This document shows, one piece after another, positions 1 through 63,378 of a stretch of 64,000 nucleotides of DNA. The stretch is from IMG/VR virus record IMGVR_UViG_3300022562_001969, positions 1 to 64,000 of that record; one strand, 5' to 3'. The stretch's first letter is position 1. Each line of letters starts with the position of its first letter. The position numbers and the translations under genes were made by a program. This stretch comes from a virus. The notes under the pieces are model-generated. The model searched no databases and had not been told where the DNA came from. It worked only from the letters and a program-made list of their open reading frames with translations.

Positions 1-651
1 CAGGGCGACCAGGTCGGCGCAACTCAAAGCGGCCTCATCCGGGACGGGTCGGACCAGCGGGGCCACCAATTGAGGCTCCTGCACGCTGGGCAGCGGCAGC
101 CCGATGCAATCCCCCATTTTCGACAGGAGCGGGCTGGGGTTGAGGGTATTGCCGATTAGCACCTGGCCGGTCACCTCATCGTTGCCCGCGTCCAGCCACC
201 AGAGGGGTTGGTTATGAATAATCGACTCCTCCATTTTATCCTCAATGGCCTCGCCAATCGTTCGTCTCGCCTCCGGGTTGTCCACGCAACCCACGACCAG
301 GGTCAAGCGGCCATTGGCGCTCCAATCCGGCCGATAATCAGCCAATAAGGCCGCCTCAAACCGGCCCACTATGGGCGTAATTTGCAGCCCAAAGGCCAGA
401 TTCAGGCGGGTGGCCAGGACCTGCGCCTTGGGGCGGCCCACATCGGCCGGGCAAAAATATTGGCGGCCAATATTCTTTTCTTCCACCTGGTCGAAATCGA
501 CGAAAAGCAGCCTGATTTTTAGCTGCGGATTGCTAACCGCAAACCTGGCCAGGTTGAGGGCGACAAAACTACCGGTGCCCCCACAACCGACCAGGATGAT
601 GACGATATTGTCCGGCCGGCCGATTTGAATTTTATGACGTTTTTGGATCAT
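1..651 (-). CDS. PRTRC-system ThiF/E1-like adenylating protein (partial)
   Basis: The left window edge cuts this gene, so only the N-terminal part (about 217 residues) is visible. Residues 21-28 read VGCGGTGS, the nucleotide-binding glycine loop of the ThiF/MoeB/E1 fold, followed by VDFDQVEEKNIGRQ, the acidic strand and Arg-Gln that contact ATP in this family, and VVGCVDNPEARR, a further typical E1 segment. ThiF/E1 proteins adenylate the C-terminus of a ubiquitin-like protein. The ATG overlaps the stop of the JAB gene as ATGA, so translation is probably coupled. Its place after proteins C, F, B and A matches the PRTRC gene order known from proteobacterial elements. The family call is strong; the activity is inferred from family and context. 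Confidence 0.85.
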   Translation of the reverse strand, partial: MIQKRHKIQIGRPDNIVIILVGCGGTGSFVALNLARFAVSNPQLKIRLLFVDFDQVEEKNIGRQYFCPADVGRPKAQVLATRLNLAFGLQITPIVGRFEAALLADYRPDWSANGRLTLVVGCVDNPEARRTIGEAIEDKMEESIIHNQPLWWLDAGNDEVTGQVLIGNTLNPSPLLSKMGDCIGLPLPSVQEPQLVAPLVRPVPDEAALSCADLVAL

Positions 652-1205
652 GCTTTCACCTCAAATAAAGCGTTTAAACTTACCCGTTGGTACGTCCCCC
701 ACACCCCCACCCGCAGGGCGATCTCCGGACGATCATAAATATGGCCGATCACCCCGTAGAAGCGGCAACCCTGCTCATCCCGGTCATCGGTGGCGCTGAA
801 AAAGGCCCCCATATTGTGATGGCTGTGCAGGTCCAGGATGATTGAGCGATCATCGCCCCCCTGGTAACAGACCCGGCCCGGCGTGGCCAGTTGGCGCGGC
901 AGACTGACCCGCCAGCGCGACCCCAGATAATGGAAGTGGTACATTTGCTCTACAACGACCCGCCGGGCGTGAGCCAGGACTTCATTAAGCCGTTCGATGG
1001 GGATTTTGGCTGTTAATAGGTGTGGCTGGTCGTCAAAATCCGGCAGACCGGCCACCCGGCAACGGACCAGTGGGGCAACCGCCCTAAAGTCAGGGGGACG
1101 CGCCCACTTGTAAAGGCCATTGCCGGCCAACACGTAGGCGTAATATTTCGGCTGCGGCAATGGTTGCCCCCGATAGATGTGATACTCAATTGGATCAGGC
1201 AACAT
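648..1205 (-). CDS. PRTRC-system protein A, JAB/MPN metalloprotease-like
   Basis: A protein of 185 residues. Residues 127-140 read HSHHNMGAFFSATD, which fits the JAMM zinc motif HxH...SxxD of JAB/MPN isopeptidases and is the hallmark of PRTRC protein A. Such proteins release or process ubiquitin-like proteins, and here the substrate would be the Ubl encoded three to four genes upstream. I chose the ATG at 1205 because it overlaps the stop of the zinc-ribbon gene by 11 bp; a longer start at 1235 would add 10 residues with no motif. The final codons overlap the ThiF start (ATGA). Function is inferred from the intact motif and the cassette. Confidence 0.85.
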   Translation of the reverse strand: MLPDPIEYHIYRGQPLPQPKYYAYVLAGNGLYKWARPPDFRAVAPLVRCRVAGLPDFDDQPHLLTAKIPIERLNEVLAHARRVVVEQMYHFHYLGSRWRVSLPRQLATPGRVCYQGGDDRSIILDLHSHHNMGAFFSATDDRDEQGCRFYGVIGHIYDRPEIALRVGVWGTYQRVSLNALFEVKA

Positions 1206-1461
1206 CGTCCACCTCGCAGACAGGGCAGCGATCATAGCTGATATGGACCTCCGCCTCGCACTCCGGGCATAGCCAATAGAAATCTACCCGGTGTTTTTCG
1301 GCGGCGTCTGCCATCTCCAGTTCGAATAGCGCCCCCTGCCCCGCCTTTTGGCCAACACGGGATTTGGGCGCAAATGGTCTCAGGAAACCCCGTTGGGCGA
1401 CGCCACTAAAGAGGGGCAAATCTTCCCCGTTAGGAAACATACAAGCCTGAATATATTTCAC
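1195..1461 (-). CDS. small zinc-ribbon protein inside the PRTRC cassette
   Basis: A predicted protein of 88 residues. The GTG start overlaps the stop of the preceding E2-like gene as GTGA, which is why the shorter start is preferred over a longer open frame to 1548. The C-terminal quarter carries two CxxC knuckles (WLCPEC and RCPVC) spaced by about ten residues, a rubredoxin-type zinc ribbon. The N-terminal half contains conserved-looking PF and RG pairs but no domain that I recognise. It sits between the E2-like and JAB-like genes, where standard PRTRC cassettes have no such gene, so it may be a lineage-specific adaptor. No specific function is claimed. Confidence 0.7.
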   Translation of the reverse strand: MKYIQACMFPNGEDLPLFSGVAQRGFLRPFAPKSRVGQKAGQGALFELEMADAAEKHRVDFYWLCPECEAEVHISYDRCPVCEVDDVA

Positions 1462-2156
1462 CCAATCACCCCCTGCAGCGTGTGCCCCGCCTCGATCAGA
1501 TCGCCCAATGGGTAAACCGTCGCCCCCTTGTCCTGGAGAGTTTGCCACATCTCCAGGACATTTTCCGGGTGAGCGGCGCTCTTTTTGTTGGCCAGATGCC
1601 GGTTGAAGCCACTCTCAAAAAACATATGCAGCGCCTCCCAAATCGTGGCTGAACTGGCGGCCGGAAACGGGGCGTTACCGCCGCAGATCAGGCCGCCCAC
1701 GTCCACATTGGGCGACGGGAAGCGGTATAAAATCGTCTCGGCCCCCGGCGGCTGATCCTGAACCGCAAAAATTTTGTAATCCGTCCCCTGGCCCACAAAA
1801 ACCACGCCGGGCAAGGGAATATGCCAGGTCTTTTTATGGCCGTGGACCGCCACCGGCCAGACCTGCGGCTCGACATAGATCGCCAGCCGTTCAAGCCCAT
1901 CCTTGCGGCCCCAGCATAAACAGCCGGGGGGCAGCAGCCCGCTATGGGCCGTCAGGCCGTTCAGGGCCTGGGCCAGGTCGGTCGGATCAACCGCAAAAAC
2001 GGCCTCCGCCTGGGCCGCCTCGCCGAACTTGGTCGCCAGGATCAGATCGTCATACAAGTCCAGGCGCATCCGCAGCCGGGCGTAATTCTCCGGGTCCAGG
2101 TCCAGGGTGGGGAAAATCAGGTTAGGGGTGGTATAGCTCGCTCTTGTCTCAGTCAT
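1458..2156 (-). CDS. PRTRC-system protein B, prokaryotic E2-like
   Basis: A protein of 232 residues. The start ATG at 2156 has GGAGG eight bases upstream and overlaps the stop of the F-like gene; an ATG three codons earlier is too close to that site. The segment around residues 149-182 (PNVDVGGLICGGN, then a WEA..FFESGF run) resembles the conserved C-terminal block of PRTRC protein B, in which a cysteine lies ahead of an F-x-S-x-F motif. Cys158 is therefore the candidate thioester residue of this E2-like fold. The partner E1-like (ThiF), Ubl and JAB proteins are in the same operon. Assignment rests on motif and synteny; conjugation has not been shown from sequence. Confidence 0.75.
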   Translation of the reverse strand: MTETRASYTTPNLIFPTLDLDPENYARLRMRLDLYDDLILATKFGEAAQAEAVFAVDPTDLAQALNGLTAHSGLLPPGCLCWGRKDGLERLAIYVEPQVWPVAVHGHKKTWHIPLPGVVFVGQGTDYKIFAVQDQPPGAETILYRFPSPNVDVGGLICGGNAPFPAASSATIWEALHMFFESGFNRHLANKKSAAHPENVLEMWQTLQDKGATVYPLGDLIEAGHTLQGVIG

Positions 2157-3021
2157 CGTCGTCATCGCCTCCATCACAGCCAATGATGGCCCAGGCCATC
2201 TCAATGTAGTTGTTGGAATTTTCGTTCAGCCATTGAACCAGCAGCTCCAACTTTTCAACCACTGGCTTGGCTTGTTGCCAATGCTGCCGCAGTAAATTCA
2301 GGTCCTGGTCCCACCTGAACTCGTGAGACCAGGATTCGAATAGATCTTGCGAGGTGTCCAGAATGATATTGCCGGTGTCCCTGGTGGCCACCCCGGCGAT
2401 CTCCGGCAGCCAGCACAGTGGCTCCGGGAAGTGGCTAAAGTCTTCGCTGCGCAGGCGTTCCCGCAGCTGCTCTTTGCTGATTTCAGCCAGATTATCATAT
2501 AACTCAATATCCTCCAGATAGTCAACGGTCAGCGGAATATCATCGTGCAGCAGCCCGGCCAGGATGTGCAAGCCGGGGTAATTCTCAAGGTCCCACTCGT
2601 TGAGGCCATAGCACCGGACCGGGATGCCGGTCAGATATTCAGCCAATTCAAATTCGTAATCGTCGCCATTCATATACGCTTCCCAAAGGTAGTCCAGTAC
2701 ACCATAGCTGCGATATGTTTTTCGCTCAGTCTCCCAATCAATGTGGAACCAATCCGCCTTTTCGACCAGACCGAAAAAATGAGATTGAATACTGATCCAA
2801 TCGGTCCTATCAAAGTTGAGATTCGCCCCCTCCTCCGGGAAATGGGTCTCAATCAGTTGGATGGCTTCCGCCTTCCAACCCCACTCGCGCAGTTGGGCGG
2901 CAATCACCTCTAATCTGAGCGGCCGGAAGCGCTGCAACACCTGCAGCCGGGGCAACCGGGCCGGCCAGGCTAAAAGCCGTCCGGTGTCGTTCGCGTTGGT
3001 ATAGCTCGCAGTTGCAAACAT
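2149..3021 (-). CDS. PRTRC-system protein F-like
   Basis: A protein of 290 residues, rich in Trp, Tyr and acidic residues, ending in a run of five aspartates. In PRTRC cassettes the order is ParB, E, C, F, B, A, ThiF, and this gene lies exactly between C and B, so F is the natural assignment. A segment near the C-terminus (TGNIILDTSQDLF, followed by a W..D.NLLRQHW block) looks like the C-terminal domain of that family. It overlaps the upstream Ubl gene by 52 bp and the downstream protein B gene by 8 bp. Similarity was judged by eye, so the family name is less sure than for A, B, C and ThiF. Confidence 0.55.
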   Translation of the reverse strand: MFATASYTNANDTGRLLAWPARLPRLQVLQRFRPLRLEVIAAQLREWGWKAEAIQLIETHFPEEGANLNFDRTDWISIQSHFFGLVEKADWFHIDWETERKTYRSYGVLDYLWEAYMNGDDYEFELAEYLTGIPVRCYGLNEWDLENYPGLHILAGLLHDDIPLTVDYLEDIELYDNLAEISKEQLRERLRSEDFSHFPEPLCWLPEIAGVATRDTGNIILDTSQDLFESWSHEFRWDQDLNLLRQHWQQAKPVVEKLELLVQWLNENSNNYIEMAWAIIGCDGGDDDDD

Positions 3022-3398
3022 CGGGTCACCACCTTTTCAGATTCTCGGCTGATCCGCTCCGCTTCCGGGATAGCCGCTTCAATATCGGCGGCCAGGCGCA
3101 ATAAATTCTCTGTGCCGCTATCGGCCGCTATCGCCTGTAGCAATTCAACCGCCGCAATTTGCGCCGGCTCAAGGGTCAGCAGGGCCTCGACCACCGGGGC
3201 GCTGCCCTTCGTCCCCACTTTTTTGGCGAAAATGACCTTGCGGGGGGTATCCCCCTGGGCCGGGATCACCGTATAGGTGGCCTGGGCCAATTCGCCAAAG
3301 TGCTGGCTGTAGTGGGCCTGAATCTCCTCGATGGTATAGGCCCCGCCCTCGTCCTTAAATAGTTCCTCGTTATTGTACTCATACACGGTCGCTGTCAT
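2970..3398 (-). CDS. PRTRC-system protein C, ubiquitin-like, with C-terminal extension
   Basis: A protein of 142 residues. Residues 1-65 match the short ubiquitin-like protein C of PRTRC cassettes: a beta-hairpin start, then YTIEEIQAHYSQHFGELAQA, a second hairpin, and the terminal VGTKG at 61-65. In typical family members the protein ends at that glycine (about 65-75 residues). Here 77 more residues follow, mostly helical and acidic. The start ATG at 3398 has GGAGG eight bases upstream and lies inside the last 20 bp of parB. The layout implies a precursor that the JAB protein could cleave after Gly65, but a permanent two-domain protein is equally possible. Confidence 0.75.
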   Translation of the reverse strand: MTATVYEYNNEELFKDEGGAYTIEEIQAHYSQHFGELAQATYTVIPAQGDTPRKVIFAKKVGTKGSAPVVEALLTLEPAQIAAVELLQAIAADSGTENLLRLAADIEAAIPEAERISRESEKVVTRCLQLRAIPTRTTPDGF

Positions 3399-4599
3399 GG
3401 TCATTACCTCCAAAATGCTCAATAACAATCGTTTCAATCGCCTGTTGTAGCAGGCCATAGGTTGTTTGTCGCGTCACCAGTTGGCCCGCGGCTCCGGTGG
3501 TCAGCATCACCGGGCAGGCGGCCGGCGTGGTGGCGTGTTTGATGGTCAGGCTGATCTGTAGGTCGGCCGGCCGGGCCGGGGCTTGTGGTGTAGCCGGGGG
3601 TGGCGGTGGGGGTGGGGCCAATTTTGCCGGTGGAGGGGGCGGCGGGGGTGGGGCCAATTTTGCCGGTGGAGGGGGCGGCGGGGGCAACGGGGACGCCTCG
3701 TCAGGGGGCGCTACCGCTTCCCCTCCGGCGTTCAGCCATTGCGGTTCGTCAGCCGCGGTTGATGTTCGCGCGCGAACATCGGGCGGGGGGGGTGGAGGGG
3801 GAGCCGCTTCCGGTTGCCGCGCCCCGGCCGCCGCCTCGCGTTCAGCCCGCTCGCGCTTGGCCCGCTCATCCGCCTCCCAGCGCCGCAGTTTGGCCGCCTC
3901 TATTTTCCCCTTGATCTTCTCCACCAATTTACGGATTTGATCGCTGGTCAAATCGCCGCCGGCGAGCAACCTTTCCTGAATCGCCGCCGGGGTGGGGCAA
4001 TCCAGGGGCGAATCCGGGCTAAAATCGGGGCTGTCAGACAGGCTGGCTATAGCCAAATCCGCCGCCGAAATCTCCAGCGCCGGTAATAGCTCCATCCCTT
4101 GCCGCTCGCTAATCCGGCCCTGGTCAATGGCCTCAAGGACCCCTGCCGGCAATCTGAGTAAGCGTAATTTGTTGGAGATTGAGCTGCGCCCCATCTGGCG
4201 TAGCCTGGCCAGTTGCTCCTGGGTCAGCTGGCGGCTTTCCATCGTCCGCTGCAACGCCCGCGCCTGCTCGACCGGCGATAAATCGGAGCGGTCCTTATTC
4301 TCATCCCAGGCGATATCATCCATCGCCTGGTCATCCAGCGCGAGCAGGTTGACCGGGAAATACCCGTACTCCCCATCCCCCTCAGCCAGCTGGCGAAAGG
4401 CCCGCAGTCGCCGGTGGCCCTCCGCCAGTTGGATGCGGCCATTAACCCGCCGGCCGGTGGGGACGTGGATCAAGCCCTTTGTGGCCGGCAGGGTGGGCCG
4501 CATGGCCGCAATTTTATCCGCCAATTCGACAATGCCCTCATACCGCTGCCGGGGTTGGTAGGGGTTGTCATCAATTTCATCTAGCCGTATGTAGTCCAT
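3379..4599 (-). CDS. parB: PRTRC-system ParB-family protein with proline-rich tail
   Basis: A protein of 406 residues. Residues near 12-20 read DDNPYQPRQ and are followed by an LAEGHRRLRAF motif, the ParB/Srx CTPase core, then a helix-turn-helix region (LTQEQLARLRQMGRSSISNKLRLLRLP). The second half is a charged coiled segment and three long polyproline stretches (up to 8 prolines) of unknown role, then a compact C-terminal domain that could dimerise. The ATG at 4599 follows AGGAGG and overlaps the upstream stop as TAATG. ParB proteins bind parS palindromes and slide on DNA; an 18-bp palindrome that recurs across the window is present within this gene at 3762-3779. Confidence 0.85.
   Translation of the reverse strand: MDYIRLDEIDDNPYQPRQRYEGIVELADKIAAMRPTLPATKGLIHVPTGRRVNGRIQLAEGHRRLRAFRQLAEGDGEYGYFPVNLLALDDQAMDDIAWDENKDRSDLSPVEQARALQRTMESRQLTQEQLARLRQMGRSSISNKLRLLRLPAGVLEAIDQGRISERQGMELLPALEISAADLAIASLSDSPDFSPDSPLDCPTPAAIQERLLAGGDLTSDQIRKLVEKIKGKIEAAKLRRWEADERAKRERAEREAAAGARQPEAAPPPPPPPDVRARTSTAADEPQWLNAGGEAVAPPDEASPLPPPPPPPAKLAPPPPPPPPAKLAPPPPPPPATPQAPARPADLQISLTIKHATTPAACPVMLTTGAAGQLVTRQTTYGLLQQAIETIVIEHFGGNDHDSDRV
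3762..3779. promoter_or_regulatory. 18-bp palindrome, copy 1 (parS-like candidate)
   Basis: ATGTTCGCGCGCGAACAT, a perfect palindrome inside the parB coding region. Confidence 0.6.
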
Positions 4600-4967
4600 T
4601 ATGCCTCCTGAAAAATAACTTGCTTGATTATCCGCTGGCGACGGTATCGCCCGGGCGCGTCGAAAATCAACTCGCTCCGCAAATACCCTCGCCGGCAATA
4701 TGAATCCAATGTCGCTTTGCTAATGCCCGATTCGCCGGCCACGGCCTTAACCGTAGGTGTTTCCAGCCTCTCGACCGCCGCCTCGATTTTGAGGAGGCGC
4801 TCGTATCGACGCTGATCAAAGTCCACCTGGGGCCGGGCCCCGTCGATGGGGCAAACGTCCTCCGGTCTGGCCTCCGGCATATGGACACATTCCCACAGCG
4901 GACACGCCAGACAAATATCACGGCCCTGGGGGGCCACGGTATAATAAGTTTTTTCAATATCAGCCAT
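4599..4967 (-). CDS. helix-turn-helix protein with N-terminal cysteine cluster
   Basis: A protein of 122 residues. The N-terminus has CLACPLWECVH and a further Cys at about residue 39, a possible zinc or Fe-S site. The C-terminal half (VKAVAGESGISKATLDSYCR followed by a basic RYRRQR segment) resembles a helix-turn-helix. It ends on the parB start codon (TAATG) and its ATG overlaps the gene upstream by 8 bp, so it is part of the same operon. It could regulate the operon or act with ParB on DNA; I do not recognise a named family. Confidence 0.65.
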   Translation of the reverse strand: MADIEKTYYTVAPQGRDICLACPLWECVHMPEARPEDVCPIDGARPQVDFDQRRYERLLKIEAAVERLETPTVKAVAGESGISKATLDSYCRRGYLRSELIFDAPGRYRRQRIIKQVIFQEA

Positions 4968-31549: not shown

Positions 31550-33199
31550 TTATATCTCCAACCGCCCTTGTGTTGGCCCTGCTCTTTCTTCTCTTTGGGC
31601 TTGTTTGAAGGTTCCATAGGCGGGCGGCATTTGTACACTTGCCCCCCCTAACAACGCCTCAATGGTAAGTATCTGAATTTTAGGGTATTTTTGGCCCCAG
31701 GCTACAGCCTCATAAAAACCGGCTGACACCGCCTCCTGGATCATCGGCTGCGTTGGTTCTTCCAGGGTGATAAAAACGCCGATAGCCGCCTTTTCCCGTT
31801 CAACCGTCCCAACCAGATCACGAATATCCCGGCTTGACACCTTGCCGCTCTTGACTTGCGCTAAAACCCGCTTAGGTTTGCCTTTTGCCGTATCAATAAA
31901 GGTGATAACCCCATCGATCCCTTTATCCGCTCCTTTTTTGCCCTTTTTACTGCCCTGGGTCGCTTTGCCCGGTCTGGCCCTAACTAACGACAAGGCCCAC
32001 CATTCAAACTGAAAGCGGTCTTGTTCTGCCAGAAAACGAGCAGAGCCTATTGTTTCAGGCTCGCCCTTGACTTCAAACGTTGTGTCCGGAAAGGCTTCTT
32101 GTAGACGATATTTTTGCAAGGCAATAGATAAATGGGTGATGTCAATACCTATCCACTTTCGGCCTAGTTTTTCAGCGGCTACTATCGCAGTACCACAACC
32201 GCAAAATGGATCAAGGACTACATCACCAGGGTTGCTACTGGCTGAAATGATACGTTCTAGTAAAGGTAAAGGTTTTTGTGTAGGATAACCCAGACGTTCA
32301 GCATCAGAACTTTGCAAAGGATTTATATCAGCCCAAATGTTTGTAATAATTGTTCCTTTTTGTTCGTTCAAAAAACGTTTAAGCGCAGGACGTTTACTAA
32401 AATCATAGGAACCATCTTTGTGACGTGGATAATAAATGCGCCCTTCATCGTGTAACTTTTGCATGGTTTCAGGTTTATAACGCCAACCTTTAGCAGGATA
32501 CGGAAAGCCTAGCCATTCGTACATCATATTGGGTCTAGGATTTGGACTTGTCATATTATCCAAACGATATAAACCGCGTCCATTATTATCATCAAATCGG
32601 TAATTTTTTTGGATATATTCCAAATCATATGGTCCATATTGAACAATAAACAGGTTTTTTTTGGAACGTTTATAAAAAAGAATTATGTCAGCAATATCAG
32701 CAAATTTCGTCTTTGCGTCACTATGGGCTGACTGTCGTTTCCAAATAATTTCATTGCCAAAGTTCTCAGCCCCAAAAATAGTATCAAGGATGACCTTCAA
32801 ATAATGGCTTGCTGTTGGGTCACAATGCAGATATAAGCTACCAGTAGGGTTCAATACCCGATGAAGTTCAACCAATCGACTAGCCATCATAACCAAATAA
32901 GCCATCATTTGGTTAGCGCCAATAAAATCACGCATGGCCCCAATCATCTTACTTATATGATCTGGTGATTCTGTTATCAATTCGTGATAGGTTTCCTCAG
33001 CGGCCGCGTTCCAGTGCCAAGTATCATCAAAAGCCGTTATCTGCGCCTGGCTATCTTGCCCACTTTCATCTTTGAATAAGACATTATAGCTGCGCTTTGA
33101 GTTAAAGGGGGGGTCAAGATAGACTAAATCAATACTTTCATCTGCTATGTAATCACGTAGAATTTGAAGGTTATCGCCATAATAAAGGGTATTTTTCAT
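31550..33199 (-). CDS. DNA methyltransferase fused to a Mrr-like nuclease domain
   Basis: A protein of 549 residues. LVYLDPPFNSKRSYNVLF at 25-42 is the DPPF catalytic motif of beta-class adenine/cytosine-N4 methyltransferases, and GDVVLDPFCGCGTAIVAAEK at about 325 is the AdoMet motif, in the order of the beta class. Residues about 420-535 (GIDGVITF, AQVKSGKVSSRDIRDL, GVFITLEEPTQPM) form an Mrr_cat-type endonuclease domain with the D...QxK triad. So modification and restriction are in one chain, a type IIG-like arrangement with the nuclease at the C-terminus. The start at 33199 was chosen at the domain start; a longer frame to 33412 runs through repeat sequence. Confidence 0.85.
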   Translation of the reverse strand: MKNTLYYGDNLQILRDYIADESIDLVYLDPPFNSKRSYNVLFKDESGQDSQAQITAFDDTWHWNAAAEETYHELITESPDHISKMIGAMRDFIGANQMMAYLVMMASRLVELHRVLNPTGSLYLHCDPTASHYLKVILDTIFGAENFGNEIIWKRQSAHSDAKTKFADIADIILFYKRSKKNLFIVQYGPYDLEYIQKNYRFDDNNGRGLYRLDNMTSPNPRPNMMYEWLGFPYPAKGWRYKPETMQKLHDEGRIYYPRHKDGSYDFSKRPALKRFLNEQKGTIITNIWADINPLQSSDAERLGYPTQKPLPLLERIISASSNPGDVVLDPFCGCGTAIVAAEKLGRKWIGIDITHLSIALQKYRLQEAFPDTTFEVKGEPETIGSARFLAEQDRFQFEWWALSLVRARPGKATQGSKKGKKGADKGIDGVITFIDTAKGKPKRVLAQVKSGKVSSRDIRDLVGTVEREKAAIGVFITLEEPTQPMIQEAVSAGFYEAVAWGQKYPKIQILTIEALLGGASVQMPPAYGTFKQAQREERAGPTQGRLEI

Positions 33200-33304
33200 T
33201 GGTTGACCACCTGACCAGGCCAGGCTATAACAAATGGCAAGTGAACGGTTCACCATCATGCCCGTGGAGAATACCCTGATTTTATCCGAGTTTGGGATGA
33301 CAGG

Positions 33305-33343
33305 CAAAAAAGACGGTCGTCCATCGTCCATCGCCCATCGTCG
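33305..33343. repeat. GACGATGGAC repeats (inverse)
   Basis: CGTCCATCGTCCATCGCCCA units in the gap between the methyltransferase and the STAND gene. Confidence 0.65.
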
Positions 33344-33391
33344 GTTACTTGTTTTCAGGCCAAAAGGGTATATAATTGATTTAGCGACATT

Positions 33392-33420
33392 TTGGCTTGA
33401 TAGTCTGATCAAGATATAAT
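33392..33420 (+). promoter_or_regulatory. promoter upstream of the STAND gene
   Basis: TTGGCT, 17-base spacer, TATAAT. It is 150 bases upstream of the start codon and immediately precedes a structured leader. Confidence 0.55.
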
Positions 33421-33426
33421 AGTAAA

Positions 33427-33495
33427 AGAAGCTCCAACCTCTGACAGGCTATCTGTCCAAAGTGTCGCAACTTGAGAGGTCTGGGGCTTCTTTTT
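33427..33495 (+). ncRNA. structured leader or small RNA with terminator
   Basis: AGAAGCTCCAACCTCT at 33427-33442 pairs with AGAGGTCTGGGGCTTCT near 33475-33491 over about 16 bp (one bulge), enclosing an inner hairpin GACAG-GCTAT-CTGTC. Five T residues follow. With the promoter ending at 33420 this gives a 65-75 nt RNA that stops 80 bases before the STAND gene unless the terminator is read through. Confidence 0.5.
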
Positions 33496-33575
33496 GGTGC
33501 TTCAGGATTTTCCGTGGGAACCACTATATCGCCATACAAGAAAAGTAAGCCAACTTTCAAAGATAGGTTCGCAAG

Positions 33576-35627
33576 ATGACTGAAAGCCGCCAACCTGGTA
33601 GGAATTTTAGGGATGAATTACTTAAGATTTTGTCAGGGATGACCGCTTTGGATGACCCTGACAACCGATATCGGCTATTGGACAAGTTGCCACTAGAGGC
33701 AGTAGCAACCATACGACGCAATTCTGCTAAGGGGACCGACCTATACAATATCGTTCAGGCTGCCGAAGGATGGGGACAATTGACCTCTGGAGAGTGGGCC
33801 TTGGTCGTTATCGCCCAAAACGCCCTATCTCTAGTTAAAGGAACCCACCCCGGTCGTCAGCTAGAGGCTCTTTTAGCTGAAAGGGTTATTCATCAGGCCA
33901 AGCCAGGCCGGCAGATCCCCCTTGATCTGCCAGCGCGAGAGGAGAATTTTATAGACCGTAAGGACGAACTGGTATCTCTACTCACCGAATTACAACCAGG
34001 ACGAGTAGTCACTTTGACTGGGCCGGGGGGCATGGGCAAGACTGCCCTGGCCGCGGAAGCCGTTGGCCAACTGGTGGTTGATCATAAGCCCCCTGAGCGT
34101 TTCCCGGATGGCATCTTCTTTCATAGCTTTTACAACCAACCCCAAGCCGGTTTAGCCCTGGAAAGTCTGGCCCTGGCCTTTGGCGAGGAAGCCAGGCCAA
34201 CGGCCCAGGTAGCGGCACAACGGGCGTTGAGCGGCCGGCAGGCCTTATTGGTGTTGGATGGCGCTGAAGATGCGGATGACTTGGCGGCCGTGTTAGCGGT
34301 GCGCGGGGGGTGTGGGGTTTTAATAACCAGCCGTAATCGGGGCGATGCGCCGGCCGTGTTGCAAGACCTGGCGCCCCTCAAACAGCAAGACGCCCTGGAC
34401 TTATTACAACGCTGGGCTGAAGCGCAGCTTGATGACCAGGCGGCGGCCATTGCCATCTGCGAACTGGTGGGGAGGCTGCCGCTGGCGGTGCGTCTGGTAG
34501 GGCGGTATCTGCGTGAGACCGGGGAGACGGCCAGCGAGTATCTAGCCTGGTTACAAGAAACCCCGTTAGAGGCCCTGAACCAGGGGCGGCGACGCGAAGA
34601 AAGTATACCTGTCTTACTTGAGCGCAGTCTAAAGCAGGTCAGTGAGGCGGCGCGGCAAGTGTTGGCGGTGGCCGGCCGGCTGGCGCTGGCCCCGCTGCAA
34701 CAAGAGGTGATGGGGGCCGCTTTGGCAGCCGAAGCGCGTGAGGTGAGACAGTGGTTAGGAGAATTGGTGCGCTATGGCTTGCTGAGCCGGGACAAAGGGC
34801 GTTATGCCATCAGTCACGCCCTCATTCACACCTACGCCAGTGAGCGGCTCAATGTGGCGGAGGAGATGGTCGAGCGGTTGGTGGCTTTCTATGTCGCTTT
34901 GGCTGAACACTTTAGCCAGCAAGGATTGGCAGGCTACCAGGCGCTTGATGGGGAGCGGCCTCACCTGCTGCGCTTGATTGCAGGCTGCGCGAAAGGAGAT
35001 GATTGGCTGGGGGTTCGCAAGCTGGTCTGGGCCATTGATGGTTATTTGTCAATTCAGGGTCACGCCAGCGAACGACAAACTGCCCTAGCGACAGGGCTAA
35101 CAGCCGCCCAACAACTGGGCGACCGCCAAGATGAAGGGGCATTTTTAGGCAGCCTGGGGACCGCCTACTACGACCAGGGGGAGCTGGACAAAGCCATCGC
35201 CCATTCTCAGCAAGCCCTGGTCATCCACCGCGAGATTGGCTACCGCCAGGGGGAGGCTGCTGTTTTAGGCTACCTGGGAACCGCCTACAGCATCCAGGGG
35301 GAGCTGGCCAAAGGCATCGACCATTATCAGCAAGCCCTGGTCATCCACCGCGAGATTGGCTACCGCCAGGGGGAGGCTTATAATTTAGGCATCCTGGGTC
35401 TCGCCTACCGCGCCCAGGGGGAGAGGGCCAAAGCCAGAGAATACTTAGCCCAGGCGCTCACTATTTTTGAGGCGATCAAATCGCCCCAGGCAGACGCAAT
35501 TCGTGAACAGTTGACTATGCTGACTATGTTAGGCCGCCTCCATATACTCTTAGCAATGTGTCAGGCCATCTACGAGAAAGGATTGATGAGGCAGCTTTTG
35601 CCGCTTTTCAAAAGGCTTATTCACTAA
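33576..35627 (+). CDS. STAND NTPase (EAD - NB-ARC - TPR), probable antiphage sensor
   Basis: A protein of 683 residues. Residues 1-100 (LLKILSGMTALDDPDNRYRL, WALVVIAQNALSLVKGTHPG) look like an effector-associated domain of the EAD class. The NB-ARC-type ATPase has Walker A GPGGMGKT at 149-156, Walker B LLVLDGAED at 224-232, and GRLPLAVRLVGRYL as the GxP motif. The C-terminus holds about three TPR repeats, two of them nearly identical at DNA level (about 120-bp period, 35200-35440). Such proteins oligomerise on sensing an invader and recruit an effector through the EAD. No effector with a matching EAD is seen nearby. Confidence 0.8.
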   Translation: MTESRQPGRNFRDELLKILSGMTALDDPDNRYRLLDKLPLEAVATIRRNSAKGTDLYNIVQAAEGWGQLTSGEWALVVIAQNALSLVKGTHPGRQLEALLAERVIHQAKPGRQIPLDLPAREENFIDRKDELVSLLTELQPGRVVTLTGPGGMGKTALAAEAVGQLVVDHKPPERFPDGIFFHSFYNQPQAGLALESLALAFGEEARPTAQVAAQRALSGRQALLVLDGAEDADDLAAVLAVRGGCGVLITSRNRGDAPAVLQDLAPLKQQDALDLLQRWAEAQLDDQAAAIAICELVGRLPLAVRLVGRYLRETGETASEYLAWLQETPLEALNQGRRREESIPVLLERSLKQVSEAARQVLAVAGRLALAPLQQEVMGAALAAEAREVRQWLGELVRYGLLSRDKGRYAISHALIHTYASERLNVAEEMVERLVAFYVALAEHFSQQGLAGYQALDGERPHLLRLIAGCAKGDDWLGVRKLVWAIDGYLSIQGHASERQTALATGLTAAQQLGDRQDEGAFLGSLGTAYYDQGELDKAIAHSQQALVIHREIGYRQGEAAVLGYLGTAYSIQGELAKGIDHYQQALVIHREIGYRQGEAYNLGILGLAYRAQGERAKAREYLAQALTIFEAIKSPQADAIREQLTMLTMLGRLHILLAMCQAIYEKGLMRQLLPLFKRLIH

Positions 35628-58919: not shown

Positions 58920-59200
58920 TATTTCTCCATCCCATAATCAATTAAGCGTCGCGCCCCTTCGGCCACGGCCAACCATTCTCGCAGCCGGGGCGGGGCAATG
59001 ATAAAAACCAGCGCCAGCCAAAATGAAATGCAGTAAGGGCAGCTAAACCCCCGATAAATCCAGTGATCGGGGGGGTAATGGTCATAGATATAATTTCTAA
59101 GGCGGCCAAAAATATCGGCCGGTCCATCCTCGGTCAAAATCATCCAGGTTAGCCGGTAAGCCGCCAGGACCGCCAAACAGAGGTCAAGCCCGCGTTGCAT
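58919..59200 (-). CDS. DUF1360-like membrane protein
   Basis: A protein of 93 residues. AAYRLTWMILTEDGPADIFG and FSCPYCISFWLALVFII match the DUF1360 pattern of phage and bacterial small membrane proteins, with the CxxC in the second hydrophobic segment. The ATG lies inside the end of the glycosyltransferase gene. Confidence 0.7.
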   Translation of the reverse strand: MQRGLDLCLAVLAAYRLTWMILTEDGPADIFGRLRNYIYDHYPPDHWIYRGFSCPYCISFWLALVFIIAPPRLREWLAVAEGARRLIDYGMEK

Positions 59201-62138
59201 TACGTACATCTCGCACCGTAATCAACCCATCTTTCCCGGTGCCGGTGATGGTGTGCAGATCAATCCCCGCTTCCGTCGCCCGTTCAATGGCGGTCGGGGT
59301 GGCGTTAATCGTCCCATTGGTTTGGCCAATCTCTTCCGGCGGACTGGTGGCCACCGCCTCTTGACTGATAGCCTGATAATTGATGGCCACCGGCGGCGGT
59401 AAATTTGAGCTATTCGTCGCCGTTTGGGGCGTCTCCTCTACCCTCCACTCCCCGGTCGATTTTAACCGCTCAACGTCCGCCGGATCGGCGTCGATGTAGC
59501 GACCCACGGCGTTATTGCCGCCGCGATAGGTTCGAGTTAATTTCACGCCGCCCACCCGGACATAATCTTTCGAGCCGGGGCGGCTGCCAACAAACTTCAT
59601 TCTGGTCATGCTGTTCGTCTCCTGATTAGTTTCTTCTTCCAGCGCAGCCGCAGCCATCTGTCCCCAGATAGTCGCTTTTTTCGCCTTCAGCAATACATTC
59701 GCGCCATTACCACGGCATCCACAACTCATGATCTCATTCGCTCCTGTGTAATAGGCTTGATAGCGTTTTTTTAGGATTGGTAAAAGCTCTTTCATCTGCG
59801 AGGCGGCCCGGTCGCGCCGTTGACCGCTATAGTTGCGATAGACAAACGTTTCTACCGGCAACAAAACGCCACACACGCCATTAATGGCGCATTTAAGGGC
59901 AAAGTCCCAATCTTCCCAGCCGGGCAACGCCTCATCAAAGCCCCCCACCCCGATGGCGTCCTGCCGCCACATCAGCACATTCATGGCGTGCTGTCCGTGC
60001 CAATCGGTCTGGACGTATGGCTTCAGGCGCTCGTGTTTCATCTTCCCCTGCGGGCTGACAGAGATGTAGTTGCTATAGATGTAGCGGCTCGCGCCGTGTT
60101 TGATGAACGCCTGCAAACTGTCGTGTAGAGCGTTTGAGAGTAGCCAGTCATCGCCATCCAAAAAATAAACCAACTCCCCCTTGGCGGCTTGCAGCCCCAG
60201 GTTACGGGCGTGACCCGCCCCACGCGGGGCATTCTCTGTTTCCAGGATGGTGGCCCACTGGTGACCCGGCAGAGGTAACGGTCGCCCGGTGTCGTTAATA
60301 ACGATGGCTTCCCAGTTGGTGACTGCTTGAGCGTGCAGGCTGTCCAGGGCGTCAAGGACATATTCACTATGCCCCGGGCCGACCGGGATGATAACGCTAA
60401 TTAACGGGTCTTGTTGGTGGTCAATATTCCAACTTTTTATATCGGAGGGCGGCTTGGCCTGCGCTCCAAAGGGTACTAAGAGGGGCGGCGGCGTGAGCCG
60501 TTTGGCCATCGCTCGCGTGCCCTCATGATAATTCGAGGCCAGCCGCCAGCCATACCAGGCGCACCAGTCGCCATCACCATCCGCATATTTTTGGCGCTCT
60601 GTACTCCCTTTTGAATCCGGGCGCAAGCGGTAAAAGATAGTGGGTTGATCAGTGACCTTTTTAGCCCGGAAGCCGAATGAGGTCAGCCGGCACCAGAGCG
60701 AGGCGTCTTCTGCTCGCCAATCACGCCGGCGATAGCCGCCTGAATTTTCAAGCGCTTCCCGGCGCATCAGAGCGCAATAAAAGGGCTGGTTGATGTGGGC
60801 CATTTGCGCCAGCCAGTTGAATTCATTGGCCTGGCTGATCTCGCTATGGAATGATTGGCCATCCTCACTCATCATCAGTAGATTGCCATAGGCGATGTGA
60901 ATTGAGGGGTCTTTATCCAGGGCCTCCATTAAGGGCAATAATCCGGCCGGCGTCAGCATATCATCCGCGTCCAGCGGGAAAACATACTCGCCGCTGCTAA
61001 ACGAAAAGCCGAAATTTCTGGCCCCGGAGAGACCCAGGTTATGCTCCGGCTCCCGGTAAATAAACCGCTCGTCCCTGGCGCAAAAGAGTCTGGCCACGCT
61101 GCGGGTGTCATCGCTTGATTTGTCATCAACGATAACACATTCCCAATTATCAAATGGCAGCCCCAGCACGCTGCTGAGACAGGCTTCCAGATAACGGCCC
61201 AGGTTGTAGCAGGTAACAATGATGGACACCTTGGGGCGGGGGGTGTTCGCGCGCGAACATTGTTCATGGAAAATATTCGCGTACTGTTCGATTTTATTGA
61301 GCCAGCCCCAGCGTTCGCGGACATCGGCCAGACAGTTGGCGCTCAGGCGATCCCTTTCAACCCAGGCGGTGTTGACCGCCTCGATCAGGGCGTCATAATC
61401 TTCAAACGGGACCAGGTAGCCGGTCTGGCCGGGGATGATAATCTCGGAGTTGCCCCCAAAATCCCAGCCGACCACGGGCACGCCACAGGCCATCGCCTCC
61501 AAGGTGCCAATGCCAAACGTCTCCCGGGCGGTTGATAGATATAGCCCGGCTTCCTGGATGTAGGGTTTCATCTGCTGGTAAGGCTGCGGGCCGATCACCT
61601 TGATATTGCCGGCTGTGCGCGGGCCAATCGTGGAGACAAAGGTTTGTTTGGGGAGTCGTTGGGCCAGATTGATCATCTGATTGACATTAGAAACGACATC
61701 CGAGCGGGCTTTATTCCACAGGATATAGCCGCCATTATTACCGGGCGCCCATTCGTCCGGATCGACGCCATGATGGATGGGCCTGACCGGCCGGTAAATG
61801 CCCCGCCGCAACGCCCTCGCGACCCAATGAGAAGGGGCGGTCACTATTTTCGCCCGAACCATATTTTCGATGACCATCTGATTGGCCAGATAACAATCAG
61901 GCGGCCAATCGTAATTGGACCAATAGAGGCCGTGACAGGAAGCGACCAGGGGCTTATGGGGCGGGTAATCAACCAGGTCGCCGGCGTGGCAATTGATAAC
62001 ATCGGCCTCGTCTGGCTTATCAACCACTTCTACCTCGAAAATAGGCAGGTATTTGCGCTGGGCTTCAATTACCCGGCGGATGCCGCCATCAGCCCGATCC
62101 GGGTTTTTTAATTGGGGAGAGATGTATACTTTGGTCAT
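59184..62138 (-). CDS. triple glycosyltransferase (GT4 - GT2 - GT2) with C-terminal PSBD-like domain
   Basis: A protein of 984 residues. Residues 1-290 are a GT4/GT-B enzyme (STARETFGIGTLEAMACGVP). From about 300 comes a GT2 domain (VSIIVTCYNLGRYLEACLSS, DADD site), and from about 575 a second GT2 (ISVIIPVGPGHSEYVLDAL, DGDDW site). Then SCGCRGNGANV, a linker, and at the very end TPTAIERATEAGIDLHTITG and GTGKDGLITVRDV, a peripheral subunit-binding (E3-binding) type domain. All three metal or donor motifs look intact. It probably builds a glycan on the virion or host envelope; the PSBD-like tail may anchor it to a structural protein. Confidence 0.8.
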   Translation of the reverse strand: MTKVYISPQLKNPDRADGGIRRVIEAQRKYLPIFEVEVVDKPDEADVINCHAGDLVDYPPHKPLVASCHGLYWSNYDWPPDCYLANQMVIENMVRAKIVTAPSHWVARALRRGIYRPVRPIHHGVDPDEWAPGNNGGYILWNKARSDVVSNVNQMINLAQRLPKQTFVSTIGPRTAGNIKVIGPQPYQQMKPYIQEAGLYLSTARETFGIGTLEAMACGVPVVGWDFGGNSEIIIPGQTGYLVPFEDYDALIEAVNTAWVERDRLSANCLADVRERWGWLNKIEQYANIFHEQCSRANTPRPKVSIIVTCYNLGRYLEACLSSVLGLPFDNWECVIVDDKSSDDTRSVARLFCARDERFIYREPEHNLGLSGARNFGFSFSSGEYVFPLDADDMLTPAGLLPLMEALDKDPSIHIAYGNLLMMSEDGQSFHSEISQANEFNWLAQMAHINQPFYCALMRREALENSGGYRRRDWRAEDASLWCRLTSFGFRAKKVTDQPTIFYRLRPDSKGSTERQKYADGDGDWCAWYGWRLASNYHEGTRAMAKRLTPPPLLVPFGAQAKPPSDIKSWNIDHQQDPLISVIIPVGPGHSEYVLDALDSLHAQAVTNWEAIVINDTGRPLPLPGHQWATILETENAPRGAGHARNLGLQAAKGELVYFLDGDDWLLSNALHDSLQAFIKHGASRYIYSNYISVSPQGKMKHERLKPYVQTDWHGQHAMNVLMWRQDAIGVGGFDEALPGWEDWDFALKCAINGVCGVLLPVETFVYRNYSGQRRDRAASQMKELLPILKKRYQAYYTGANEIMSCGCRGNGANVLLKAKKATIWGQMAAAALEEETNQETNSMTRMKFVGSRPGSKDYVRVGGVKLTRTYRGGNNAVGRYIDADPADVERLKSTGEWRVEETPQTATNSSNLPPPVAINYQAISQEAVATSPPEEIGQTNGTINATPTAIERATEAGIDLHTITGTGKDGLITVRDVRNATRA
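61243..61260. promoter_or_regulatory. 18-bp palindrome, copy 6
   Basis: GTGTTCGCGCGCGAACAT, inside the large glycosyltransferase gene of the tail module. Confidence 0.6.
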
Positions 62139-62139
62139 T

Positions 62140-63378
62140 TTACACCGCCACCAGGTTGTAGTCCCAGGAAGCCGTTATATTCGTGTCTGTATCTGACACG
62201 CTAATCACCGCCAGCCTGATATTAGTTAAGGCGTCAAACACAAGCCCACTTTCCGGCTTGTTTAGGGGGCTGCTGGTAGTAATCTCGAAATTTCGCTTGG
62301 TTATCCAGGAGCCGCCACTGATTCGCGACTGTAATTCAATGTTGGCGCTTCCAGGCAGGCCATTGGCCCGGGCGCAGTAGACGAAAAGTTGTTTGATCTG
62401 GTATTTCATCCCGGCAGGAACGGTATCTGTCGCTTGCTGCGTTTGCCCTTTGCCGGGGGGAATGTAGGCCAGAACGGTAGATAAGTCATTGGGGACGCCA
62501 CCGGTGTGGGCGTTTTGGGTATTGAGATAGACGTGCCCCACATTTATATTTTCATTGCTAACGACCAACCGGTTGCTATCCAGTCCTGTTACCCCCAGGC
62601 TGACCGCCGTCTGACCATTAAGGTTGACTGTTATTGTCTGCCGGTTCCCGTCGCTATCCAGATAATACACATCCACATCCACATCGGTGTCGCTGCCGCT
62701 ACTGGAGGATAGATAAAGCGATTGGGCGCTGGTCGGAAAGGTTTTTCTGTCAACCCGATTAGCCAGGTTATCATCGGCCAATCGCCATGCGTCCACGGTA
62801 TTGTCCGCCGCGTCCAGAAATTTCACTCCACCGAATTTCTCATCTTCCAAGATACCACCAATGCGTCCCAGCGCCAGGTCTACTGACGTAGGCACCGAGC
62901 GCACAATGATAGCGTCCGCGTCTGCGGCAATGCTCAGATTCAGGGGGGCGTTCCCTTGCCGAAACATTCCCCAAAATGTACTCAGGGAGAAACTTCCCTG
63001 AGCTACGGAACCATTGAGAAATCGCACCCGGGTGGGGCGTGGCAGTTTAACCGCCGTGTGGAATTCCGGTGTGTTCGCCGCCACCGAAAAACCATTTGTC
63101 GGGAAGGCTCGCCAGGAGCCTCCCTCATCTTGAAACTCAAAAAACAGCGTGCCATCCTGGTCGGCCACGCAAAAAACGCCAATATCAGGATAGCCATTCT
63201 CTTCACCCTCGCCGGTAAATTCACCATCAGATCCCAAAATAGTCGTACTGCTATTAGCCGTAGATTTGATACCGGTTTGGCCAATCTGGGACAAGTCCAG
63301 CGAAACGGGCACTGATATATCGGCGGCGGCTGAGGCGATATGAATAGGCGTGGCGGCAGCCCCTATTAGTTTTGCCAT
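62140..63378 (-). CDS. virion structural protein
   Basis: A protein of 412 residues, beta-rich and low in Cys, with several strand blocks (DVDVDVYYLDSDGNRQTITV, LVVSNENINVGHVYLN). Lies between glycosyltransferase genes at the head side of the module. No family recognised. Confidence 0.55.
   Translation of the reverse strand: MAKLIGAAATPIHIASAAADISVPVSLDLSQIGQTGIKSTANSSTTILGSDGEFTGEGEENGYPDIGVFCVADQDGTLFFEFQDEGGSWRAFPTNGFSVAANTPEFHTAVKLPRPTRVRFLNGSVAQGSFSLSTFWGMFRQGNAPLNLSIAADADAIIVRSVPTSVDLALGRIGGILEDEKFGGVKFLDAADNTVDAWRLADDNLANRVDRKTFPTSAQSLYLSSSSGSDTDVDVDVYYLDSDGNRQTITVNLNGQTAVSLGVTGLDSNRLVVSNENINVGHVYLNTQNAHTGGVPNDLSTVLAYIPPGKGQTQQATDTVPAGMKYQIKQLFVYCARANGLPGSANIELQSRISGGSWITKRNFEITTSSPLNKPESGLVFDALTNIRLAVISVSDTDTNITASWDYNLVAV

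Follow-up and report, generated by a model that had tools for sequence, protein, structure and literature searches.

The window analysed here, a stretch of 64,000 nucleotides, belongs to a virus record of 86 kb in IMG/VR, which carries siphophage tail genes and a gene for a tyrosine recombinase, and the start of the window falls inside a minus-strand cassette of ParB-like, ubiquitin-like (Ubl), F-position, E2-D, CxxC-frame, JAB and E1 genes. The ParB-family gene (3379..4698; TIGR00180 82 bits, HTH_ParB) lies 5' of the Ubl gene, a PRTRC-C-like open frame for a putative ubiquitin-like precursor of 142 aa (2970..3398; GGAGG 8 nt before ATG 3398). The F-position gene (2149..3021), whose ATG overlaps the last 52 nt of the Ubl tail, has a counterpart at the same place in cyanobacterial plasmids, and is followed by the gene for a PRTRC B-like E2 family D protein (1458..2204; PF14460 73.5 bits) with an active-site Cys invariant in alignment A1. 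The PRTRC A-like JAB/JAMM metalloprotease (648..1235; Prok-JAB 27.3 bits, TIGR03735 48.6 bits) is the proposed maturation enzyme; its JAMM motif is intact, as the earlier note had it, with E96, H137, H139, S147 and D150 invariant among 31 JABs, and the PDB entry that its model (pLDDT 94) matches best in fold is 6fnn, the complex of Caldiarchaeum ubiquitin with an Rpn11 homologue (E 4.7e-5). Between E2 and JAB lies a small open frame with CxxC pairs (1195..1548), possibly a zinc ribbon, which may or may not be a gene and matched no Pfam or NCBIfam family above cut-off. The E1-like ThiF protein (1..651) is cut by the record start, and a complete copy of 344 aa with a zinc-ribbon-like C terminus is present in a second IMG/VR contig of the same lineage (L002, 7754-8788); cyanobacterial E1s are without this C-terminal extension (about 8600-8788 in L002). 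An E3-like or targeting role is possible for either the CxxC frame or the E1 extension.

The proteins of the window miss the NCBIfam PRTRC cut-offs (A 48.6 bits against 101.8, B 61.9 against 131.45, C 16.6 against 45.95 and ParB 43.6 against 278.6), yet those of Pfam for E2-D and Prok-JAB are reached and the gene order is that of PRTRC or operon type 6d (ParB-like, Ubl, F-position, E2-D, JAB, ThiF-type E1), and we therefore regard the cassette as a diverged branch of PRTRC. Cassettes of cyanobacterial and Pseudomonas plasmids (L007, L012, L329, L328) were seen close to dnaN, dnaX or primase genes of the plasmid, which hints at a connection of the cassette with replication. Elsewhere in the window, a gene for an NB-ARC/NACHT-TPR protein that contains the effector-associated domain EAD8 (33567-35627, plus strand) stands beside one for a fusion of a DNA methylase with a nuclease domain of Mrr type (31550-33448, minus strand), a pair that possibly represents phage-borne defence. 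In an odd combination, the C-terminal part of a double glycosyltransferase (59184-62174, minus strand) matches the E3-binding domain of dehydrogenase complexes.

Ubl and tail are encoded by a single uninterrupted minus-strand ORF with its stop codon at 2970-2972, in which VGTKG (3204..3218) occupies residues 61-65 of the 142-aa form and is followed by 77 residues, as described in the earlier note; an in-frame alternative start at ATG 3404 would give 144 aa. The identical protein is encoded by L002, where the DNA of the region is 99.99% identical, which argues against an assembly error with the caveat that both contigs may stem from one sample. The part up to VGTKG (3204..3398) is tentatively assigned to the ubiquitin-like beta-grasp domains by a weak TIGR03738 score (16.6 bits), by the alignment of 35 homologues (A5) and by AlphaFold2, which, when run with these homologues, modelled the Ubl strands and helix between residues 6 and 60 of the 144-aa form with a pLDDT of about 92 in a topology that fits a beta-grasp; Foldseek matched the Ubl model to ubiquilin, SUMO and the PB1 domain with weak scores (E 0.2 or worse). 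A linker of low confidence (pLDDT down to 64) that includes GTKG was modelled at residues 61-70 in 144-aa numbering, followed by confident helices over residues 69-131 and a disordered end with DGF, so that the tail (2973..3203) is predicted to consist of a helical domain and a disordered C-terminal peptide. The junction Lys-Gly is invariant in A5, and the conservation of GxKG, the drop in pLDDT and natural stops in related loci mark the position behind the last Gly of VGTKG as the putative JAB cleavage site; its motif ends in a single Gly and not in a di-glycine, as in nearly all relatives. Database look-ups of the whole Ubl-tail protein in phages and plasmids gave no match, and its identity to homologues is 33% at best, with none close enough for a selection test.

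Relatives of the cassette were found through E1 and E2 and traced in plasmids, genomes and viral contigs, the E2 alignment being too variable for scanning. The 269 loci with recognisable Ubl and E1 were reduced to 213 by filtering and de-replication and to 212 by leaving out one dead cassette (L192, G135:C11), first scored as extended with JAB, in which a 625-bp deletion removes the catalytic part of JAB and the GxGGxG loop of E1, fusing the JAB N-terminal domain to E1, and where the gene for a Ubl extended by two residues persists. A degenerate JAB-less cassette (L159, 3797-7852) stayed outside the table as it failed the E-value filter; its Ubl is without GxKG, its E1 reads GLGGGG, its E2-D, F and GF-tail genes are still there, and it is the only JAB-less locus with a Ubl candidate not ending at a C-terminal Gly/Ala. 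On a Candidatus Chlorohelix plasmid (L005/L011), an IS21 element was observed at the expected Ubl position, 5' of F, E2-D, JAB and E1. Among the 212 loci, in which Pseudomonadota PRTRC plasmids are thinly sampled, the Ubl ends exactly at its C-terminal residue in 54, carries one to seven further residues in 36 and 30 or more in 122, shares that are no census since the loci came via E1 relatives of the window. The view of the earlier note, that a family member usually ends at the Gly, applies to 54 of 212 loci in a sample centred on the window's E1 relatives and was not confirmed.

The tail of the window belongs to a helical family common to Cyanobacteriota, Chloroflexota and Acidobacteriota, which is fused to the Ubl in 58 of the 213 loci and encoded by a separate gene, mostly directly behind, in another 38; on cyanobacterial plasmids the fused form was found in Anabaena, Gloeothece, Nostoc and Leptolyngbya and the split form in Pseudanabaena, Planktothrix and Oscillatoria. 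Gly-Phe (2973..2978 in the window) is the C-terminal end of 80 of the 96 tails of this family, usually as x-P-x-Gly-Phe-COOH, and related tails lacking it end in GW, VL, FI or GM. At this end, Gly is written with any of its four codons, Phe with either of two and the stop with any of three, from which it follows that the protein end and not the DNA is under selection, and by which an origin of Gly-Phe as a by-product of the overlap with the next gene was ruled out. No convincing Pfam, NCBIfam or PDB family was found for the tail, and fold and sequence searches returned no known relative. In other loci, different tails stand behind the same GxKG, at least five of them unrelated in sequence to that of the window. 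Six clusters of 64, 13, 7, 6, 5 and 3 members were obtained, together with one pair and 21 singletons; profile-profile comparison showed no convincing similarity among clusters (best hhalign probability 18%), and GxKG itself is retained in exact, short and long Ubl forms. Two tails behind GTKG (L107, L151) show Cys/His patterns of small zinc fingers (CVLC...H..GC; CLKC), and PRTRC cassettes of viral contigs (L225-L304) carry other tails of 60-70 aa behind AVGTKG (HVCPLLDEE, ...VVLP and WLDDxDAEF families).

An extended Ubl was accompanied by a JAB gene in 158 loci and lacked it in none, whereas exact forms were found with (25) and without (29) JAB (Fisher 3.8e-21), absence of JAB meaning absence at the locus, with a genome-wide check for the two natural experiments described below; in the JAB-less loci kept, the Ubl is exact at its C-terminal residue in 29 of 29. 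As the loci are related, the dependence was tested again along a tree of E1, built by a quick maximum-likelihood method and weak at many of its branches, where Pagel's dependent model was preferred over the independent one with an LR of 44.3 (p 5.5e-9) and, after removal of 18 loci of a large JAB-less viral-contig clade, of 31.2 (p 2.8e-6), several rates being at their bounds. JAB changed about 8 times and the extension about 20 times on this tree, and four independent pairs were supporting and none contrary, a number at which the sign test alone cannot reach 0.05. Judged by gene content, the extension appears to depend on the JAB gene in a strictly one-way manner. In turn, the 25 loci with JAB and an exact Gly imply that JAB must do something else too, probably deconjugation.

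Most weight for the dependence on JAB is carried by the natural experiments in Planktothrix and Chloroflexota. In Planktothrix (L013, L060, L067), TGA stands directly behind the Gly codon, and between otherwise collinear flanks the JAB gene has been deleted cleanly; a protein search found JAB neither elsewhere in two whole genomes nor on the third record, a plasmid. JAB-bearing sisters at an E1 distance of 0.05-0.06 have GSKG followed by two residues (VK, VR or AR), the junction reading GGA GTA AAA TAA or similar. Despite the loss of JAB, Planktothrix keeps the tail ending in ...GF as a separate gene. Likewise, the Ubl ends with AGTKG-stop in two Chloroflexota genomes in which no JAB was found (L199/L201), one of which (L201) has a separate tail ORF ending in ...VVGW, and their nearest JAB-bearing relative (L207) reads AGTKGARA. 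Chroococcidiopsis was ruled out as an exception, its JAB adjoining a relocated E1 on the same plasmid.

Considering these findings, we regard it as very probable on comparative grounds that the window gene encodes a pro-ubiquitin-like precursor which JAB would cut after the Gly, freeing the Ubl and a second conserved protein. The suggestion of the earlier note that the protein needs maturation is hence backed by the distribution of extensions, also after correction for relatedness, and at nucleotide level by one pair of close lineages in which a stop behind the Gly accompanies the loss of JAB. It is favoured because extensions occur only with JAB and JAB loss goes along with a stop exactly behind the Gly, and because GxKG persists in front of sequences that divide into at least six unrelated clusters; the AlphaFold2 model, with two confident parts and a low-confidence linker at the site, and the match of the JAB model to 6fnn, which by analogy recalls the Caldiarchaeum precedent, would be in line with it, as would the linear-fusion cleavage by CBASS Cap3 and the JAB processing predicted for operons of this type (see below). 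Counted against it are the JAB in the 25 exact-Gly loci, the few changes of JAB, the Pagel rates at their bounds and the single Gly. The earlier note had offered a fused effector domain as the alternative; the tail indeed represents a conserved domain with its own gene in other lineages, but this does not compete with a precursor. Similarly, of a tail shared by most homologues and never cleaved, which the note had set against its own suggestion, the first part is found, as most homologues share a tail, while the dependence on JAB argues for cleavage.

That the fusion stays whole as a two-domain scaffold or adaptor, with JAB only stripping Ubl from conjugated targets, would agree with the conserved domain and C terminus of the tail and with the retention of JAB in 25 loci that have no need of maturation; we nevertheless consider it unlikely, since it predicts neither the absence of extensions from all JAB-less loci nor the pairing of JAB loss with a stop exactly behind the Gly, and gives no need to retain GxKG before at least six unrelated tails. 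For QbsE-type sulfur carriers with short C-terminal extensions, trimming by JAB has been proposed, and JAB might accordingly trim the final Phe of the tail so that the Gly before it is activated, for which the high conservation of GF-COOH at protein level could speak. This is very improbable and was rejected as GF persists on the separate tail gene of Planktothrix where JAB was lost; moreover, related tails have other ends and whole clades with the same E1, E2 and JAB have no GF tail. That two genes were joined by a frameshift, by a missed stop or by a sequencing error, the last of which had been raised in the earlier note, may come to mind because in several lineages the Ubl and the tail have neighbouring genes of their own, but such an artefact has next to no probability: it is refuted by the identical protein in the second contig and by the same in-frame fusion in 58 de-replicated loci from several phyla.

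For the precursor, we propose that translation would yield Ubl-VGTKG-tail, that the adjacent JAB/JAMM protease would cut behind the last Gly in the flexible linker, and that the free Ubl C terminus would be adenylated by the ThiF-type E1 and transferred through the family-D E2, while the tail would be released as a second protein in an amount equal to that of Ubl. The cleavage, its exact site, the blockage of E1 by the tail and the role of the tail are what we infer. The tail appears to have a function of its own because it is kept as a separate gene after JAB loss, and once freed it probably docks via its C-terminal peptide onto some other part of the cassette or element, the docking role of the GF end being our guess. 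More tentatively, and with somewhat less than even chances, bacterial mobile elements may use a ubiquitin-fusion strategy in which one Ubl acts as a leader that can be cut off a set of unrelated cargo proteins and cutting by JAB provides Ubl and cargo in equal amounts, the helical GF-ended cargo being a partner of the conjugation system, e.g., a targeting or E3-like adaptor docking by its C-terminal peptide. PRTRC cassettes occur widely on plasmids of bacteria and on phage-like elements and have hardly been studied; of the papers that a full-text search found to use the word PRTRC, none is about its function by title and abstract. As read from the sequences, our data would assign the cassette JAB a specific job, maturation, which was previously only predicted. 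Within the scope of these searches, the extended forms, the tail families, among them a previously undescribed one with a conserved C-terminal Gly-Phe, the JAB-less cassettes and the one-way dependence on JAB are new, and natural sequence pairs differing in few residues and one gene are at hand.

In eukaryotes, ubiquitin fusions (Ub-L40, Ub-S31) and the precursors of ubiquitin, SUMO and NEDD8 are processed by proteases that free the Ubl from unrelated proteins or a few residues. The cassettes resemble them in that different unrelated sequences stand behind the terminal Gly of one Ubl; however, the eukaryotic enzymes are cysteine proteases whereas the cassette has a JAMM metalloprotease in the same operon, and its tails resemble neither a ribosomal protein nor any other Pfam family. 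Of the features of a JAMM-matured precursor, an extension behind the Gly, a dedicated JAMM protease with intact E/HxH/S/D and dependence of the extension on the protease gene are found here, and a di-glycine at the putative cleavage site is not. In Caldiarchaeum subterraneum, a 9-residue extension stops E1 activation of pro-ubiquitin until Rpn11 removes it, and a stop codon behind the di-glycine makes the protease dispensable (PMC5654768); the Planktothrix stop codon is the natural counterpart of that construct. Both systems combine a Ubl bearing a C-terminal extension with a JAMM protease encoded beside it and E1 and E2 in the operon, but the 9 residues behind a di-glycine in Caldiarchaeum contrast with a predicted folded domain of 77 residues behind GTKG in the window, which elsewhere is a separate gene. 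Bacterial CBASS Cap3 cleaves a linear fusion at the cGAS C terminus (PMC10097602), and Cap2/Cap3 are like the cassette in comprising a bacterial E1/E2 and a JAB that is able, as proposed for the cassette, to cut behind the C-terminal residue of the modifier in a linear fusion, with the difference that in CBASS the modifier is the cGAS-like enzyme itself. Finally, in operon type 6d as described by Iyer et al. (2006), the Ubl is standalone with a C-terminal Gly, JAB is always adjacent and was predicted both to process and to remove the Ubl (PMC1779556). Type 6d, or PRTRC (TIGR03734, 03735, 03737, 03738), shares with the window the order of Ubl, helical protein, E2-D, JAB and E1 with ParB upstream, whereas in the window the Ubl is extended instead of ending at the conserved Gly, and relatives without JAB exist.
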